Shown here piece after piece: positions 22,693 through 35,402 of a stretch of 35,402 nucleotides of DNA. A program made the translations under genes and the position numbers. Under the pieces are notes generated by a model, which was given only the letters and a program-made list of their open reading frames with translations, was not told the DNA's origin and made no database searches. Positions within the stretch are counted from its first letter, which is position 1. Every line of letters starts with the position of its first letter. Source of the stretch: Acidimicrobiia bacterium (GTDB taxonomy: Bacteria; Actinomycetota; Acidimicrobiia; Spongiisociales; Spongiisociaceae); contig VXMM01000027.1 in assembly GCA_009841105.1 (NCBI GenBank), forward strand, positions 1-35,402, written 5' to 3'.

Positions 22693-24471
22693 TCAGGTGT
22701 TTCGGGTGGCGAGTAGGCGGGCGAGTTCGCCGTTCCCCTTCTCGAGCTCGTGTGGGGGGCCGACTTCGACCACATGTCCGTCGGCGAGGACGACGGCGAG
22801 GTCGGCTCGGCGGATAGTGGACGGTCGATGGGCGATGACCAGCGTGGTGCGTTGGCCGGCGACCCGTGCCAGTGCGTCTTCGAATGCTCGCTCGGATTCG
22901 GCATCGAGGTTGGACACTGCTTCGTCGAGGACGAGGATCGGTCGATCGGCGAGCAGGGCCCGGGCGATGGCGAGGCGTTGGCGTTGTCCGGCCGACACGC
23001 CCGAGCCGCGTTCGCCGAGGCGGGTCTGGTCGCCGTCAGGCATGGCATCGACGAATTCGTCGGCTTGTGCGGTCTCGATGGCGTCTCGTATGGCGGTGTC
23101 GGAGGCGTAGGGACGGGCGAGGGCGACATTGTCGCGAACCGTCCAGCCGAACAGGTGGGCGTCCTGGGGGACATGGGCCATCAGGGCGCGCAGATCGTCC
23201 TGGCCCAGGTCGCGAATGTCAACGTCGCCGATGGTGATGCGGCCTCCCTGGGGGTCCCAGTAGCGGAGCAGCAGGTAGGTACATGTGGTCTTACCCGCGC
23301 CGGACGCTCCGACGAGCGCGACGGTCGAACCGATCGGCACCGTGAAGGACAACTGATCGAGCACGGTCGGGAGCGTTTCGTCGGCCGGGTAGGCAAAGCT
23401 GACGTCCTCGAAACGGATGGTCACGTCCTGCGGGGGCGGCACCGGTTCTTTGGTGTCGAGAACGGGGGGTTGCTCGTCGAGCAGTACACGGACCCTTACG
23501 GCTGCCGCGGTGATCCGCCCGAGTTCCTGTCCCAAACGGGAGATGGCGATGACGGGTACGAATGCCCCCATAGCGAGTACGACGGCGGGGAGCAGCAGGG
23601 CGGCATCGAGTCGGCCGCCCTCGACCAGGCTGGCGCTGACGAGCAGGGTGGCCACGGTGCCGAGGGACAGGAAGACGTCAGTTGCGGCCTGTTCGAGCCC
23701 GGCCCGTCGGCCGTGGGACGCGGTCGCCTGGGCGAGCTTGTGCTGGCGCGTCTTGAGGCGATCCAGCAGCCATGACCCGGCCCCGAAGCTGGCGATCTCG
23801 CGGACGCCCTGGGCTGCGTCGACCACGTCGGCTGAGAGGTCTGCGGCGCCGGTTCGGATCCGGGCTCCGTCGTCGAGCGCCCGTCCGGCGAGCCACGCGG
23901 GTACCGATGCGAGCAGGAGGAGGAACGGCAGCAGCGTCAGGGCCAGGAGGGGGTGGAACACCGCGAGGGTGATGAGGGTGGCGCCGGGGACGATGACGGC
24001 GACCACAGCCGGCGGGAGGAAATGCGACGTGAACAGTTCGAGCAGTTCGACGTCGGCCATGGCCGTGGAGGTCGTATCTCCTGAACGGCGTCGTACCGAG
24101 AACGCCGGCGAGAGCCTCCGGATTTGCTCGTAGAGGCGAACTCGGAGGTCGGCCAGCAGCCGGTAGGACGCGACGTGGGTCCAGTAGTTATGCAACCCGG
24201 CAGCGACGACGACCGGCACGGTGACGACGAGGGCGACGATGGCCCATGTCTCCAGCCGGTCCTGTTCCTCGCCGGCCAGGGCAAGGGCGAGCAGGTACGA
24301 GGCGGCGCCGGCGCCGAGCAGCGCCAGGCCGCGGGCCACCACGTCTGCGGCCACGGCTCCAACGAGGAGCTTGCGGTCCGTGGTCGCCAGCTCGCGGGCC
24401 AGGACGGCCAGCGATCGCGCTCCCATTCTGAGCTTGCTGGTACTGAGGTCGGTGGAGCGGGGCTGGTTCAT
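22693..24471 (-). CDS. ABC transporter, fused membrane and ATPase domains (second subunit of pair)
   Basis: 592 residues. Residues about 30-330 form a type-I exporter membrane domain with several hydrophobic helices (for example VVARGLALLGAGAASYLLALALA and AIVALVVTVPVVVAAGLH). The nucleotide-binding domain has Walker A GASGAGKT (388-395), a Q-loop near Q436, signature VSAGQRQR (492-499) in place of LSGGQ, Walker B ILVLDEA (512-518) and switch H548. The altered signature suggests an asymmetric heterodimer with the upstream gene, whose signature is canonical. The ATG overlaps the upstream gene's TGA by the ATGA arrangement. The substrate is not shown by sequence. The operator upstream of the pair hints at a metal-related substrate such as a siderophore. 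Confidence 0.88.
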   Translation of the reverse strand: MNQPRSTDLSTSKLRMGARSLAVLARELATTDRKLLVGAVAADVVARGLALLGAGAASYLLALALAGEEQDRLETWAIVALVVTVPVVVAAGLHNYWTHVASYRLLADLRVRLYEQIRRLSPAFSVRRRSGDTTSTAMADVELLELFTSHFLPPAVVAVIVPGATLITLAVFHPLLALTLLPFLLLLASVPAWLAGRALDDGARIRTGAADLSADVVDAAQGVREIASFGAGSWLLDRLKTRQHKLAQATASHGRRAGLEQAATDVFLSLGTVATLLVSASLVEGGRLDAALLLPAVVLAMGAFVPVIAISRLGQELGRITAAAVRVRVLLDEQPPVLDTKEPVPPPQDVTIRFEDVSFAYPADETLPTVLDQLSFTVPIGSTVALVGASGAGKTTCTYLLLRYWDPQGGRITIGDVDIRDLGQDDLRALMAHVPQDAHLFGWTVRDNVALARPYASDTAIRDAIETAQADEFVDAMPDGDQTRLGERGSGVSAGQRQRLAIARALLADRPILVLDEAVSNLDAESERAFEDALARVAGQRTTLVIAHRPSTIRRADLAVVLADGHVVEVGPPHELEKGNGELARLLATRNT

Positions 24472-26237
24472 CGCTGTTCCTGGGCGGCGATGAGGCGTTG
24501 GTACGGCCCGCCGGCTCGTGCCAACGTGGCGTTGGTGCCCTCCTCGATGACCCGGCCGGCGTCGAGGACGAGCACGCGGTCGGCGTTGGCGACGGTGGAG
24601 AGCCGGTGGGCGATCACCAGGGTGGTCCTGGTCCGCGTGATCTCCGCCAGCGATGCGACGATGGCCTGCTCGTTGGCGACATCCACGCTCGAGGTCGCCT
24701 CGTCGAGGATGAGGATCGGGGCGTTCTTGAGCAGGGCACGGGCGAGCGCAAGGCGTTGGCGCTCGCCGCCGGAGAGCCGGGTGCCCCGTTCCCCGACGAT
24801 CGTGGCCAGCCCGGCAGGTAGCCCGGCAACGAGGTCCCGTACGCTTGCGATCCGGAGAGCCTCGTGGAGCGCTCCGTCGTCGGCGTCGCGGCGGGCCATG
24901 CGGAGGTTGTCTCGCACGGTCCCGTGGAACAGGTACGTGTCCTGGGCGACGACGGCGCAGTGCGCACGTACCTCGTCGGGTGCCATGGTCCGGGTGTCGA
25001 GGCCGTCGATCGAGATCGTCCCCGCTTCGGGGTCATAGAACCGCAGCAACAAGTTGACCAGGGTCGACTTGCCCGATCCGGAGCGACCGACGATGGCGAC
25101 GGTCTCCCCCGCCGAGACCCGGAACGAGATGTGGTCGAGGGCCGGGCGGTCACCGGTGCGGTATCGGAACGTGACGTCGGTGAACTCGATGGCAGGAGGA
25201 GTCCCGGCCGATCCCTTCTCTGTTTCCCGAGCTTCGACGGTGGAGATGGGTCGGCTTGACACCTCGGGCTCGGTGTCGAGCACGGCGAAGACCCGCCGAG
25301 CGGCGGGCATGCTGGTCATGGCGAAGTGGTAGGCCATCATCAGGTCCCAGACGGGGCGGAAGCACTCGCCGACGAGGAGCAGGATGATGAAGGCCTCCAC
25401 CGGTGTGGTCGATCCCGACGACACGCCGAACGCGGCGATGACCAGGCTGAGTGCGGTGCCGAGAGCGGTGAGAATGCCGAGGATGCCCCAGATGAACCCC
25501 CCGGTGGTGGCGAAGGCGATCGAGTCACGCCGCACGAAGTCGGCCCGCTCGGCCAGGTCGGCACCGACGCGGCGATCGGCATTGAACGCTCGGAGCACAC
25601 CCATGCCCTGATAGGCGTCGACGAACTCTGCAGCGAGGTTGCGGTAGCGATCGTCGACTTTGATGAGGCGCTGCTTGAGGCGAGCCATGTGCCAGCGCGG
25701 TAACACGATCGAGGCCACGATCACGACGACGAGGGTGCCCGCCACCCGCCAGTCGATCGCGGCGACCACGGCGATCGCCCCGATGGCTGCGACGCCGGCG
25801 ACCAGCGCCTGGGCCAGGAACTGGCGGTAGTAGTCGTCGAGGCGTTGGATCCCCTCGACCAGGGTGGCATCGAGTTCCCCGGATCGATGTCGGCTGGTCC
25901 AGGCCGGGCCCAGCTCGAGCAGGTGTGCCAGCACCCGCCGTCGCAGTGAGCCGGTGACACGCACCGAGGCCTCCGCCGCGGCGCTGGCCCGCCACACCAT
26001 GGCAACCGCCCGCACCGCGATGAGCCCCACGACGGCGGCGACCAAGGCGATTACAGCGTTGACGCCGTCACCCTCGAAGGCTCGGCGCACGGCCAACGCC
26101 GTGAGCACGCCCTGACCGAGGTAGGTGCCGCTCACGACCAGTCCCGCGACGACGATGCGGGCCAACGCTCGCCATTCCGACGCGGCGAGCGCCACCAACC
26201 GGCGATGCACGCGGCTGGATTTATCGGATCGGCTCAC
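24468..26237 (-). CDS. ABC transporter, fused membrane and ATPase domains (first subunit of pair)
   Basis: 589 residues from a GTG start with a G-rich SD-like stretch. The membrane domain (about 20-320) has six likely helices, including IVVAGLVVSGTYLGQGVLTALAV, AVIALVAAVVGLIAVRAVAMV and ALVAGVAAIGAIAVVAAI. The ATPase domain has Walker A GRSGSGKST (384-392), Q432, signature LSGGERQR (488-495), Walker B ILILDEA (508-514) and H544. It is translationally coupled to the second ABC gene; the two halves would make one exporter-fold heterodimer in the inner membrane. A Fur-like box lies about 91 bp upstream. IrtAB of mycobacteria and YbtPQ are iron-regulated siderophore importers built on this fold, so such a role is possible but unproven. 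A drug or lipid exporter is the alternative. Confidence 0.88.
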   Translation of the reverse strand: MSRSDKSSRVHRRLVALAASEWRALARIVVAGLVVSGTYLGQGVLTALAVRRAFEGDGVNAVIALVAAVVGLIAVRAVAMVWRASAAAEASVRVTGSLRRRVLAHLLELGPAWTSRHRSGELDATLVEGIQRLDDYYRQFLAQALVAGVAAIGAIAVVAAIDWRVAGTLVVVIVASIVLPRWHMARLKQRLIKVDDRYRNLAAEFVDAYQGMGVLRAFNADRRVGADLAERADFVRRDSIAFATTGGFIWGILGILTALGTALSLVIAAFGVSSGSTTPVEAFIILLLVGECFRPVWDLMMAYHFAMTSMPAARRVFAVLDTEPEVSSRPISTVEARETEKGSAGTPPAIEFTDVTFRYRTGDRPALDHISFRVSAGETVAIVGRSGSGKSTLVNLLLRFYDPEAGTISIDGLDTRTMAPDEVRAHCAVVAQDTYLFHGTVRDNLRMARRDADDGALHEALRIASVRDLVAGLPAGLATIVGERGTRLSGGERQRLALARALLKNAPILILDEATSSVDVANEQAIVASLAEITRTRTTLVIAHRLSTVANADRVLVLDAGRVIEEGTNATLARAGGPYQRLIAAQEQR

Positions 26238-26327: not shown

Positions 26328-26348
26328 TAATGAGAATCATTCTTATTA
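26328..26348. promoter_or_regulatory. Fur-family operator-like palindrome
   Basis: Arms TAATGAGAAT and ATTCTTATTA flank a central C and match as inverted repeats at 9 of 10 positions. The A/T-rich TGAnAAT-n-ATTnTTA pattern is that of Fur/Zur-type boxes. It lies about 91 bp before the ABC operon start and at the predicted +1, ideal for repression. It is 325 bp from dnaK. Which metal is sensed is not decided by the sequence. Confidence 0.65.
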
Positions 26349-26354
26349 TGCCCG

Positions 26355-26382
26355 ATACTACCGATGACGGGCAGAAGTTCAA
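26355..26382 (-). promoter_or_regulatory. Putative promoter of the ABC transporter operon
   Basis: On the minus strand, TTGAAC (26382-26377), a 16-bp spacer and TAGTAT (26360-26355). The expected start falls inside the adjacent Fur-like box. Confidence 0.45.
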
Positions 26383-26570
26383 CTCTTGACGACGGAACCG
26401 CTCATGCGAGCGCCGTTCCCGGCGAGACCAGCCTCGGAACACCGGCCACCGGAGTGGCAAGTGGTCGGTTGCCAGCAGCCAGTGAGCGCCCCGGAAGTAA
26501 CGGGTGCCGCTAGGCCCTTGGGCCTGGTGGGTTGCTCTTATTCGTCCCTGGGTTACACCATTCACTGACG

Positions 26571-26602: not shown

Positions 26603-26628
26603 TAAGGTATGACTTAGGTTATACCTAA
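26603..26628. promoter_or_regulatory. Candidate dnaK-operon operator (TAAGGT/TTAGGT/ACCTAA half-sites)
   Basis: TTAGGT-TAT-ACCTAA (26614-26628) is a dyad with perfect 6-bp arms. An extra half-site TAAGGTAT (26603-26610) also pairs with ATACCTAA at 7 of 8 positions. It overlaps or follows a possible -10 (TATGAT, 26598-26603). It is not the HAIR box (CTTGAGT-N7-ACTCAAG) known for HspR. The regulator could be the HspR of this operon with a diverged site, or a DtxR/IdeR-like protein, whose site also begins TTAGGT. Confidence 0.45.
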
Positions 26629-31196: not shown

Positions 31197-34100
31197 CTAG
31201 ATCCAGTGCCGCCTGCGCTGGAAGGGGTAGGTGGGGAGAGCGATCCTTCGCCGGGCCTCACCGGAGAACAGTCCGGCGAACGAGATGCCCACCCCGGCCT
31301 CGTAGGCGCCCGCCACCGCGCTCAGGAACCCGCCGTCGGCCTCCGCCGTTTCTGCGTCGCCCCGGGAACCCACCAGAGTGGAGAGCACGGTCGGCGCCGG
31401 CGCGGTCTCCGGCCACGCATCACGGATGGTCCGGCCCTGCGTCGAGTCGGGACCGATTACCACCACCACATCCGTCCCGAGCCCGGCCAGGGTGCCGGCA
31501 CAGCCGGACAGACCGGCCGGTCCGCCGGCCTGCCGGAGCCAGCCGGCCAGATCGAGTTCGCCGACCGATCCCACCACCCGGCCGTCCGCACCGTCGACCA
31601 GGGAGATTGACGGCGCGGAGAGGGTGAGGCCGGCCACCTCCGCCTCCAGACCATCGAGAGCTGCTTGCGGGTCCCAGCCGGGGCCCGGCCTCAGCCGGGC
31701 GCCCAGCTCCGCCGCCAACCGCAGGCCCTCCTCCAGGCTGAGCACACCTGCCGCCTGGGCCGCCGGCAATCCCGGGCCGCTTCCCACGACCGCATTCGGG
31801 CGGATGCCTATGCTTGCCCACTGCGCGGTCAGCGCGCATGCAAGCGCGTAGGCGAGCGGGTGTGTCAAGGCCGGATCGTGCTCAACACCGGGTTGACCGA
31901 ACATCGCGTCGAGAAGTGACACGTCGAGGTCTCCCCTCAACACCTCTTCGCAACGGTCCAGCACGGCCCGCGCCACCGGCTCGCTCCGGTAGAGAGCCTC
32001 ACCCGCAGCCATCCATCGGCGGCCCGGGCCGGTGTACGCGAACGCCACCCTGGCCGTTCCGTCGCGTGCCTCTCCAGCGGGCGTCTCGTAGCTTCCGGCC
32101 AGGCTCCGCAGCCTCTGCCGGAGTTGGTCGGCATCTGTGAACACCACCCCGGCGCGGTGCGGCAGGTGACTCCGGCCCGTACCCGCGGTCCAGGCCAGGT
32201 CGGACAACAGCGCATCGGAGGCCGAACCGTCCTGACCGTCCAGCCAGGACACGTAACGCCTCGCCAGATCCCGGACCGCGCCCGGCGATTTCCCGGAGAG
32301 GGGAAGCAGGCGGGCGCCGCGCCGTCCTGCTTCTGACCCGGAGAAACCGGCGACGGACTCCGGAAGGTTCACTGCCACCGCCTGCGGGCCTCCGGCCGGA
32401 CCGCCGGCAATGTCGCCCGCCGCGACAACATCCGTACCCAAGCCGTAGCCCTCGACCAGGACGTGTGCGTTGGTCCCCGACAGCCCGAACGCGTTGACAC
32501 CTGCGAGCGGCGGGCGGCCGGAGTCAGTCGGCCATGCGGTCCTCTGCGACGCGATCCGCACCGGTATCTGATCCCATTCGACGTGCGGATTCGGGTCCCG
32601 CAGGTGCAGCATCGGAGGGATGACTCTCTGGTTCATCGAGAGAACGGTCTTGATGAACGCCGCTATCCCGGCTGCCCACTCGGCGTGTCCTATGTTCGAT
32701 TTCACCGATCCGACCAGCAAGGGGCGGTCGGTGCCACGCCCGTCACCGTAGACCGCCGCCGCCGCGTTCAGCTCGATCGGATCGCCCATTTGCGAGCCGG
32801 TCGCGTGCGATTCCAGATAGTCGACCTGGGACGGCTCGAAGCCCGCTTGGGAGAGAGCTTCGGTCATGATGCGTTCCTGGGTGGGGCCGTTCGGCACCGT
32901 CAGGCCCGCGCTGGCGCCGTTCTGGTTGACCGCCGACCCTCGGATGACGGCCCAAATCCGGTCACCGTCCGCCTCCGCGTCGCTCAACCGCTTCAGGACC
33001 ACCATCCCGCACCCCTCGCCGCGCACGTAACCGTCCGCGGAGGCGTCGAATGGACTGCACCGCCCGGTGGGGGACAGCATCCCCACATCCATCATGAACC
33101 GGGAGATCGGAGGGGACAGGACCACGTTCACGCCACCCGCGAGCGCCATGTCCACCTCACCCCGCTGGAGGCCCACCACCGCCTGATGGATCGCGGCCAG
33201 CGACGACGCGCAGGCCATGTCGACCGGCATCGCCGGCCCTTCGAGGCCCAGGGCGAAGGCGACACGACCCACGGCCACGCTTCCGGTGGTCCCGAGGTAG
33301 CTGTCAGCCCGGTTGCCGGCCGCGATCAGGTCGCGGTACTCGCTGCTGCCGATTCCCGCGTACACCCCGGTACGGCTGCCCCTGAGCCCATCGGAATCCA
33401 GACCGGCGTCCTCCAGGGCTTGCCAGGTGGTCTCGAGCAGCATGCGTTGCTGGGGATCCATCAGCTGCGCCTCTATCGGGGAGATCCGGAAGAAGCGCGA
33501 GTCGAACCAGTCGATTCCGTCGACGAAGGCGCCCCGCCGGTACGCGATATCCGCCGCATCGGGATCCCCCACGGCGCCGCTCCAAGACCCGGCGTCCTGG
33601 CGTCCGTCGGTCACCGCATCGACGCCGCCCTCCAGCAGGTCCCAGAACGCCGCCAGATCGCGTGCGCCCGGAAAGCGGCAGGCCATACCGACGACCGCGA
33701 TCCCGTCCTCACCGCTACGGACCGGAACGGGGGGTTCCGGTTCGGGGATATCGGGCGAAGGGGGAGCCTCACCGACCGTCGAGAGTTGGCCGAGCTCGTC
33801 GGCGAGATGGCGCGACATGCTCTCGATATCCGGATAGTCGAAGACGATGGTGTTGGAGGCGACGTACTCACCGTCGAAAGCACGGTTCAGGCGGTTGCGT
33901 AGCTCGACCGCCATGAGAGAGTCCATACCCAGATCGAAGAAGCCGACCGTGGGCGAGGGCGCCTTCGGCAGCCTGAGCACCGCCTGGACCTGCTCCGCCA
34001 GGAAGGATCCCAGAACGTCTTCGCGGTCCCCGGCAGGGGTGCCGCCCAGCCTGGAGATGATGTCCTCCGTCGCGGCGGAGGCGCCGGCCGCGTCACCGGC

Positions 34101-35402
34101 ATCCGACGACAGCAGGTCCTCCAAGAGGGAAGGCCGATCTTCGACAGCCTCCTCGAACACCGACCAGTCCATCGACATGACCACCGAGTTCGTGCTGTCC
34201 TGGCGCACCAGCCGCTCGAGCGTCCGGATACCTTGCTGCGGCGTGAACCAGCGACCGCCGAGGGCCGCTCGTCGCTGCTCGATCCGCTCCCGCTGCTCGG
34301 CCGCCTCGCCGATATCCGACCATGCCCCCCAGGCGATGGCCTGTCCCGCCAGGCCCTGAGCACGGCGGTGACCGGCGAGTTGGTCAAGGAAGGCATTGGC
34401 CGCAGCATGGTTGGCCTGTCCGGGATTGCCCATGACGCCGACGCGGCTCGAGAACAGGACGAATAGATCCAGATCCCGCCGACGCGTGGCCCGGTGCAGG
34501 TGCCAGGCCCCCACGATCTTCGGCCACAGCACCCGCTCGAAGCTCTCCCAGGTCTGGTTGGTCAGCGCCGCGTCCGACAGCACCCCCACGCTGTGGATGA
34601 CGCCACCGAGTGGCGGTAGCTCCGCGTCCATGCGCGCCAGCATCGCGTCGAGCGCCGCGACATCCGTCACGTCCGCCAACTCGACCTCGACCCTGACGCC
34701 TCTCCGGCGCAACTCCTCGATGGTATCCCGTGCCTCGGCATCGGGATCCCTGCGGCCGTTCAGGACGATGGTCCCGGCGCCCCGGTCCGCCAGCCACTCG
34801 GCCACGGCGCAGCCGATGCCTCCCAGGCCGCCGGTGACCAGGTAGGTGCGGTCCTGCCGCAACCGGCCCCGGGCGAGCGGGTTGGCCGTCACAACGATCT
34901 TGCCGAGGTGCCGGGCAGCCCGCATGAACCCCAGGGCGGGTCCGGCCTCGGCCAGCGGCCACCTGCTGTGGATGAGCGGTTCCAGCACCCCCTCCGACAG
35001 CTGGGCCATCACCTCTCGCAGTACCTCGCCCACCCACTCCGGCTCGGTCTTCTTGAGCACGTCCAGCTCCAGGATGTCGTAGCCCACATCCGGGCGGACC
35101 TCCGCCATCTCCTCGTGGGTCAGGATGTCCCTCCGGGCCAGCTCGACGAAACGGCCACCCTCCGCCAGGCAGGACAGGCCGGCCTCGATGAAGCCCTCGC
35201 TGGTGAGGCTGTTCAGCAGCACGTGAACGCCCTCGCCTCCGGTGGCTTCCAGGATCTGGTCGCCGAACGCGGTCTGGCGGCTGTCGTACACGTGCTCGAC
35301 GCCCAGCGACCGGACGAAGTCGTGCTTCGGGAGGCTGGCCGTGGCGAAGACCTCGGCGCCCGCGGCGTGCGCCAACTGGATCGCGGCAGTTCCCACCCCG
35401 CC
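31197..35402 (-). CDS. Modular type I polyketide synthase, C-terminal part: ER(partial)-KR-ACP-KS-AT-like
   Basis: 1401 codons are in the window; the N-terminus lies beyond it. Numbering from the Val at 35396: ER 1-170, cut at its NADPH GGVG motif; KR 184-380, with TGGLGGIG at 188-195, FSS at 315-317, and His330 where the catalytic Tyr usually stands (QANHAAAN); ACP 460-535, with the phosphopantetheine Ser493 (LGMDSLM); KS 565-985, with Cys729 (DMACASSL), His864 and His904, a complete triad; AT-like 1115-1335. The AT-like domain is about 80 residues short. It reads YTGPG for FTGQG and GSGPG for GHSxG, so the catalytic Ser is Gly1207. The protein ends with the usual post-AT linker (ALPTYPFQRRRHWI), with no ACP or thioesterase after it. 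The product cannot be inferred. Confidence 0.9.
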   Translation of the reverse strand, partial: GGVGTAAIQLAHAAGAEVFATASLPKHDFVRSLGVEHVYDSRQTAFGDQILEATGGEGVHVLLNSLTSEGFIEAGLSCLAEGGRFVELARRDILTHEEMAEVRPDVGYDILELDVLKKTEPEWVGEVLREVMAQLSEGVLEPLIHSRWPLAEAGPALGFMRAARHLGKIVVTANPLARGRLRQDRTYLVTGGLGGIGCAVAEWLADRGAGTIVLNGRRDPDAEARDTIEELRRRGVRVEVELADVTDVAALDAMLARMDAELPPLGGVIHSVGVLSDAALTNQTWESFERVLWPKIVGAWHLHRATRRRDLDLFVLFSSRVGVMGNPGQANHAAANAFLDQLAGHRRAQGLAGQAIAWGAWSDIGEAAEQRERIEQRRAALGGRWFTPQQGIRTLERLVRQDSTNSVVMSMDWSVFEEAVEDRPSLLEDLLSSDAGDAAGASAATEDIISRLGGTPAGDREDVLGSFLAEQVQAVLRLPKAPSPTVGFFDLGMDSLMAVELRNRLNRAFDGEYVASNTIVFDYPDIESMSRHLADELGQLSTVGEAPPSPDIPEPEPPVPVRSGEDGIAVVGMACRFPGARDLAAFWDLLEGGVDAVTDGRQDAGSWSGAVGDPDAADIAYRRGAFVDGIDWFDSRFFRISPIEAQLMDPQQRMLLETTWQALEDAGLDSDGLRGSRTGVYAGIGSSEYRDLIAAGNRADSYLGTTGSVAVGRVAFALGLEGPAMPVDMACASSLAAIHQAVVGLQRGEVDMALAGGVNVVLSPPISRFMMDVGMLSPTGRCSPFDASADGYVRGEGCGMVVLKRLSDAEADGDRIWAVIRGSAVNQNGASAGLTVPNGPTQERIMTEALSQAGFEPSQVDYLESHATGSQMGDPIELNAAAAVYGDGRGTDRPLLVGSVKSNIGHAEWAAGIAAFIKTVLSMNQRVIPPMLHLRDPNPHVEWDQIPVRIASQRTAWPTDSGRPPLAGVNAFGLSGTNAHVLVEGYGLGTDVVAAGDIAGGPAGGPQAVAVNLPESVAGFSGSEAGRRGARLLPLSGKSPGAVRDLARRYVSWLDGQDGSASDALLSDLAWTAGTGRSHLPHRAGVVFTDADQLRQRLRSLAGSYETPAGEARDGTARVAFAYTGPGRRWMAAGEALYRSEPVARAVLDRCEEVLRGDLDVSLLDAMFGQPGVEHDPALTHPLAYALACALTAQWASIGIRPNAVVGSGPGLPAAQAAGVLSLEEGLRLAAELGARLRPGPGWDPQAALDGLEAEVAGLTLSAPSISLVDGADGRVVGSVGELDLAGWLRQAGGPAGLSGCAGTLAGLGTDVVVVIGPDSTQGRTIRDAWPETAPAPTVLSTLVGSRGDAETAEADGGFLSAVAGAYEAGVGISFAGLFSGEARRRIALPTYPFQRRRHWI

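Follow-up and report, generated by a model that had tools for sequence, protein, structure and literature searches.

A two-gene ABC operon behind a predicted Fur/Zur-type box

The window, that is, the whole 35,402-nucleotide stretch of DNA analysed here, encodes two ABC half-transporters on its minus strand. P1, the CydD-side subunit (24468..26237; 589 aa, GTG start), and P2, the CydC-side subunit (22693..24471; 592 aa), are each a fusion of a transmembrane domain and a nucleotide-binding domain, as assigned from Pfam (PF00664 and PF00005 in P1) and, for P2, also from the signature columns and AlphaFold model described below. Walker A, Walker B and the H-loop are complete in both proteins, and the signature motif of P2 is slightly deviant (VSAGQ). 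The two genes overlap by 4 bp, so their translation is likely coupled, in line with the first-pass annotation of this DNA, which had described two coupled, fused ABC proteins.

About 91 bp ahead of the P1 start lies a predicted Fur/Zur-type operator, the palindrome TAATGAGAATCATTCTTATTA (26328..26348, no strand assigned). It was identified by a pattern search and by scoring against a matrix built from 19 Zur boxes that have been published for M. avium paratuberculosis (PMC4298942). Its arms (TAATGAGAAT / ATTCTTATTA) pair at 9 of 10 positions around a central C, and the 21-bp palindrome is thus present just as first reported. The box scores 30.7 bits on the Zur matrix and the runner-up in the window 5.0 bits, a match that is not exclusive to Zur since Fur boxes resemble Zur boxes. 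No comparable site is expected in shuffled window sequences. Genome-wide, AATGANAATNATTNTCATT with at most one mismatch occurs at three distinct sites in four places, one sequence being found on duplicate contig ends, against a composition-based expectation of about 0.0004 sites and zero matches in the reversed control.

In the window, the pair is flanked by dnaK on one side and by plus-strand housekeeping genes on the other, with no metal gene adjoining it on either flank. The first-pass annotation had put the box at a predicted transcription start, but a scan there found no standard sigma-70 promoter. Control of dnaK by the box was set aside because the box lies 326 bp upstream of that gene, past a terminator-like stem-loop (26507..26530, plus strand, a consensus match only), and is elsewhere common to metal genes. 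A separate perfect palindrome, TTAGGTTATACCTAA, at 26614-26628, stands 46 bp upstream of dnaK in the dnaK-grpE-dnaJ-hspR cluster and is a candidate HspR operator or DtxR/IdeR-like site. At the end of the window, the minus strand of 31197-35402 encodes a Type I polyketide synthase (KS, AT, KR, ER-like, ACP) cut by the contig end.

The same box precedes metal genes in the genome and its relatives

The second genomic box (contig C5, L015) lies upstream of an operon encoding a FecCD permease, a Peripla_BP_2 protein and an ATPase, and the third upstream of a gene for a His-rich ZnuA/AztC protein on the duplicate contigs C48 and C52. Both of these contigs carry the 5' part of that gene and break at its His-rich repeat; the 3' end is on C19. 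The duplicate ends, with the same box and the same 5' part, are an assembly artefact.

Boxes of this type were found in 12 of the 13 related genomes searched. Most of those fetched adjoin ZnuA-ZnuC-ZnuB genes, ZnuB/ZnuC paralogues, or FecBCD operons with His-rich binding proteins, and a few adjoin no clear metal gene. The first-pass annotation had called for a scan of this kind, with a lack of matching boxes before other metal genes to count against it; such boxes do stand ahead of metal genes, in this genome as well as in its relatives. In three of the loci (L018:5250-7637, L179:2336-4813, L188:2912-5239), the His-rich loop of the ZnuA/AztC protein houses an AztD zinc-chaperone domain, and each of these genes has the box upstream and znuC and znuB downstream.

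A homologous ABC pair (41-44% identical) lies beside a box in six related genomes (G003, G009, G012, G107, G108 and G109), mostly divergent from a His-rich FecBCD-type operon. In G107, the pair follows FecCD-SBP-FecE in a single run with a single box ahead, and in G003 it adjoins an AztD-bearing ZnuA-ZnuC-ZnuB set. The nearest homologue of the window's pair, in G241, lies near no box and no metal genes, and wider searches of the order and class returned no closer one within the class. The close relatives of the genome are metagenome bins of sponge or coral type that carry the label Acidimicrobiia, so the DNA probably comes from a marine actinobacterium that lives in association with a host.

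Zinc or iron

A search for Fur, Zur and Mur genes, also proposed by the first-pass annotation, returned a single Fur-family protein, which scores similarly against Fur, PerR and Zur. It has the HHHH and CRSC motifs common to mycobacterial FurB/Zur, lacks the Zur Cys76 ligand and retains the Fur-type YEL(A) glutamate. Structure matches did not separate Fur, PerR and Zur either. The genome has two DtxR-family matches, so iron may be handled elsewhere.

We read the box as Zur-like rather than as an iron-Fur site. Zinc is favoured by the Zur-matrix score and by the content of the regulon, as the genes that follow the boxes in the genome and its relatives are largely zinc-type. Given the likeness of Fur and Zur boxes and the missing Cys76, zinc is favoured rather than proven, and since the Fur-family protein scores alike against all three types the call leans on regulon content. 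The first-pass annotation had instead proposed a siderophore importer under iron control by Fur. The similarity of the boxes, the YEL(A) glutamate and the fact that FecBCD homologues are often siderophore importers would agree with such a reading, but ZnuABC/AztD, ZigA and His-rich binding proteins recur in the box-bearing or neighbouring gene sets, and iron may be the task of the DtxR-family proteins; we consider it unlikely.

The pair belongs beside CydDC, apart from IrtAB and YbtPQ

In a maximum-likelihood tree of 53 sequences, IrtAB and YbtPQ cluster together (99/96), with P1 and P2 outside their group. P1 groups with P1-family proteins and CydD (99/98), whereas P2 joins first the P2 family (99/95) and, beyond it, CydC (97/91). 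The kinship with IrtAB and YbtPQ suggested by the first-pass annotation is accordingly rejected, as the tree puts the pair beside CydDC. When actinobacterial CydD sequences were added, the CydD proteins that pass the family cut-off formed their own clade (100/99) with the window's P1 outside. In that tree, support for the fork that carries the pair's family is only moderate (87/84), and several of the reference branches are long.

The nearest NCBIfam models of the pair are CydD/CydC ('thiol reductant exporter') and the MsbA type, and P1 and P2 fall short of the CydD and CydC cut-offs (379 against 435 and 302 against 329, respectively). One relative does pass the CydC cut-off. The warning that annotation pipelines would misname the pair therefore holds in spirit, though the expected label, multidrug exporter, is not the one that the nearest models give. 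We found no description of the family in the open-access literature.

A predicted metal site in the membrane domain

IrtA holds a divalent metal with His356, His402 and His407, and in YbtP the third position is Asp (PMC10246721). P2 has H99, E145 and H150 in the same columns, with identical spacings of 46 and 5 residues, giving a triad of H-E-H where IrtA has H-H-H and YbtP H-H-D. The heme of CydDC is clamped by CydC His85 and CydD His312 (PMC10691846, PMC10374445). The first of these columns is that of P2 H99; the second is that of H304 in TM6 of P1, where 18 of the 19 members of the P1 family have His. The window pair thus keeps the two axial heme histidines of CydDC. In the alignment, neither signature histidine is present in MsbA, MdlA, MdlB or the genome's other three ABC exporters.

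These residues, together with the tree, would suit a CydDC-type transporter of heme (or of heme and thiols) that has been brought under metal control. CydC R77, R81 and R136, however, interact with the heme propionates (PMC10374445), whereas P2 has A, N and H at the corresponding positions; this argues against heme. All 20 aligned family members have His in place of R136. Cytochrome bd oxidase was not found in the genome (assembly 97.5% complete), and the genes near the pair are metal rather than heme genes. A classical CydDC is rejected on the cut-offs, the clade position, the absent arginines and the lack of cytochrome bd; we hold a metal-controlled heme transporter of CydDC type to be distinctly improbable for the same reasons and on account of its neighbours.

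The signature residues go with metal-uptake genes

P2 H99 and H150, together with a further signature residue, E260, occur jointly in 35 of 74 homologues as well as in the window. A metal-chelate or metal importer-class neighbour (FecBCD, Nik-type, Znu, TonB, CobW/ZigA or YcaO, counted within the stretches examined) is found at 26 of the 35 signature loci and at 1 of the 39 without the signature (Fisher p 2e-11, indicative only, because the classes were chosen after some of the loci had been viewed); the other 9 signature loci have no such neighbour within those stretches. Since the 35 include many closely related sponge-derived loci, which are not independent, the sponge-derived loci were also collapsed to one group, upon which 14 of the 22 remaining signature loci keep a metal-class neighbour. 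L082 and L086, which had initially been assigned to the controls for their low identity, have both the signature and FecBCD genes.

A YcaO cyclodehydratase (TOMM SagD type, 730-760 aa) adjoins the pair in three phyla (L055:4992-7277, L058:2339-4564, L064:1-2202), with a ZigA-like zinc GTPase near YcaO in L055 and a TonB receptor near it in L058; these are possibly azoline-type metallophore systems. In four Bacillota loci (L069, L065, L041, L071), NikA/CntA-type importers accompany the pair, mostly together with a UbiE-like methyltransferase, which hints at nickel/cobalt chelates. In the Rhizobiales loci L059 and L060, a standalone pair lies beside a TetR-type regulator with the signature residues retained and metal genes absent.

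Fold and direction of transport

The AlphaFold model of P2, based on a 75-row alignment, has a pLDDT of 93 (an earlier 7-row model, pLDDT 42, was unused). Its best match, on a par with others, is the YbtQ chain (Z 35.4, rmsd 2.8 over 572), and Sav1866, Atm1-type exporters, MsbA and IrtA follow within a few Z units. The exporter fold of the pair is thus confirmed, for P2 in the model and for P1 by sequence. In the structural comparison with IrtAB that the first-pass annotation had suggested, IrtA does appear among the matches, but the ranking does not single it out. Since importers and exporters are mixed in it, the ranking says nothing on direction.

An exporter fold would be natural for a pair that, induced by metal shortage, exports a metallophore made by the cell. 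In favour of such a role, YcaO enzymes adjoin the pair at the three loci above, and in Commensalibacter genes for an adenylation enzyme and an NRPS are clustered with it. In the sponge-derived relatives, however, the pairs adjoin uptake genes only, the G107 pair follows FecCD-SBP-FecE behind one box, and an IrtA-like metal triad is an importer feature, so that we give metallophore export little credence, though more at loci where NRPS or YcaO genes are next to the pair. An ordinary drug or lipid exporter with the box there by coincidence is very improbable: the fold fits MsbA, Sav1866 and others no less than YbtPQ, but MsbA, MdlA, MdlB and the other ABC exporters of the genome lack the signature histidines, and the linkage of box and pair recurs in six other genomes.

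Discussion

We propose, at a probability of about 0.6, that the pair represents a third lineage and is a metal-regulated, exporter-fold transporter of metal chelates, which it probably imports. The suggestion of the first-pass annotation that a metal or metallophore transporter under metal control lies here is supported by the boxes before metal genes and by the conserved metal-ligand residues. We infer that a metal-loaded Zur-like (or Fur-like) repressor on the box would keep the two-gene operon off and that metal shortage, most likely of zinc, would allow its expression. P1 and P2 would then form an exporter-fold ABC heterodimer, of the lineage beside CydDC, that may use P2 H99, E145 and H150 and P1 H304 to bind a metal chelate within the membrane. 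The chelate would be moved inward, and the pair would work alongside the importers of FecBCD and ZnuABC type with which it shares a regulon.

Transport direction is not readable from sequence, and descriptions of CydDC make it an exporter. Three things favour import here: the uptake operons that accompany such pairs, the shared IrtA-type site and the precedents of mptABC and PchHI. M. avium paratuberculosis mptABC encodes an exporter-fold system that is repressed by Zur, responds to zinc and not iron, and is induced by zinc shortage (PMC4298942). Like the operon described here, it has exporter-fold ABC genes behind Zur boxes, but it comprises three genes and is an IrtAB homologue (PMC4298942). 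In Pseudomonas, the exporter-type pair PchHI acts with FepBCDG in pyochelin-iron uptake (PMC10846271), a role in chelate uptake like the one proposed for our pair.

The pair has traits of each of the better known systems. With the mycobactin importer IrtAB of Mycobacterium it shares the exporter-fold heterodimer, and its H-E-H residues are in exact register with the TM2/TM3 metal triad (H-H-H) of IrtA, whereas it lies in a separate clade, has no siderophore-interaction domain and belongs to a zinc-type rather than an iron-type regulon. Like the yersiniabactin importer YbtPQ, it consists of two fused half-transporters, and YbtQ gives the best Z score; YbtPQ, in contrast, groups with IrtAB, and YbtQ is without the TM6 histidine. 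CydDC, its nearest lineage, has the axial histidines and the D-then-C gene order in common with it, and differs in the clade of CydD, the heme-site arginines and the association with cytochrome bd, as well as in the predicted metal regulation of the window's pair.

Given the above, we tentatively suggest a third lineage of exporter-fold metal-chelate importers that arose beside CydDC, spans at least five phyla, may handle zinc, nickel or cobalt chelates, and combines the IrtA-type triad with the CydD-type TM6 histidine; on the same tentative footing, this lineage would have so far gone unrecognised, its members misnamed as thiol or multidrug exporters. Annotation cannot tell metal transporters apart from exporters of drugs and lipids; one relative already scores above the 'thiol exporter CydC' cut-off. 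If our reading is right, a residue test for the TM2 His, the TM3 Glu/His and the TM6 His would make the distinction. Distinct exporter-fold lineages would then move metal chelates via one conserved membrane site, and this common site would link CydDC, which binds heme, with the siderophore importers IrtAB and YbtPQ.
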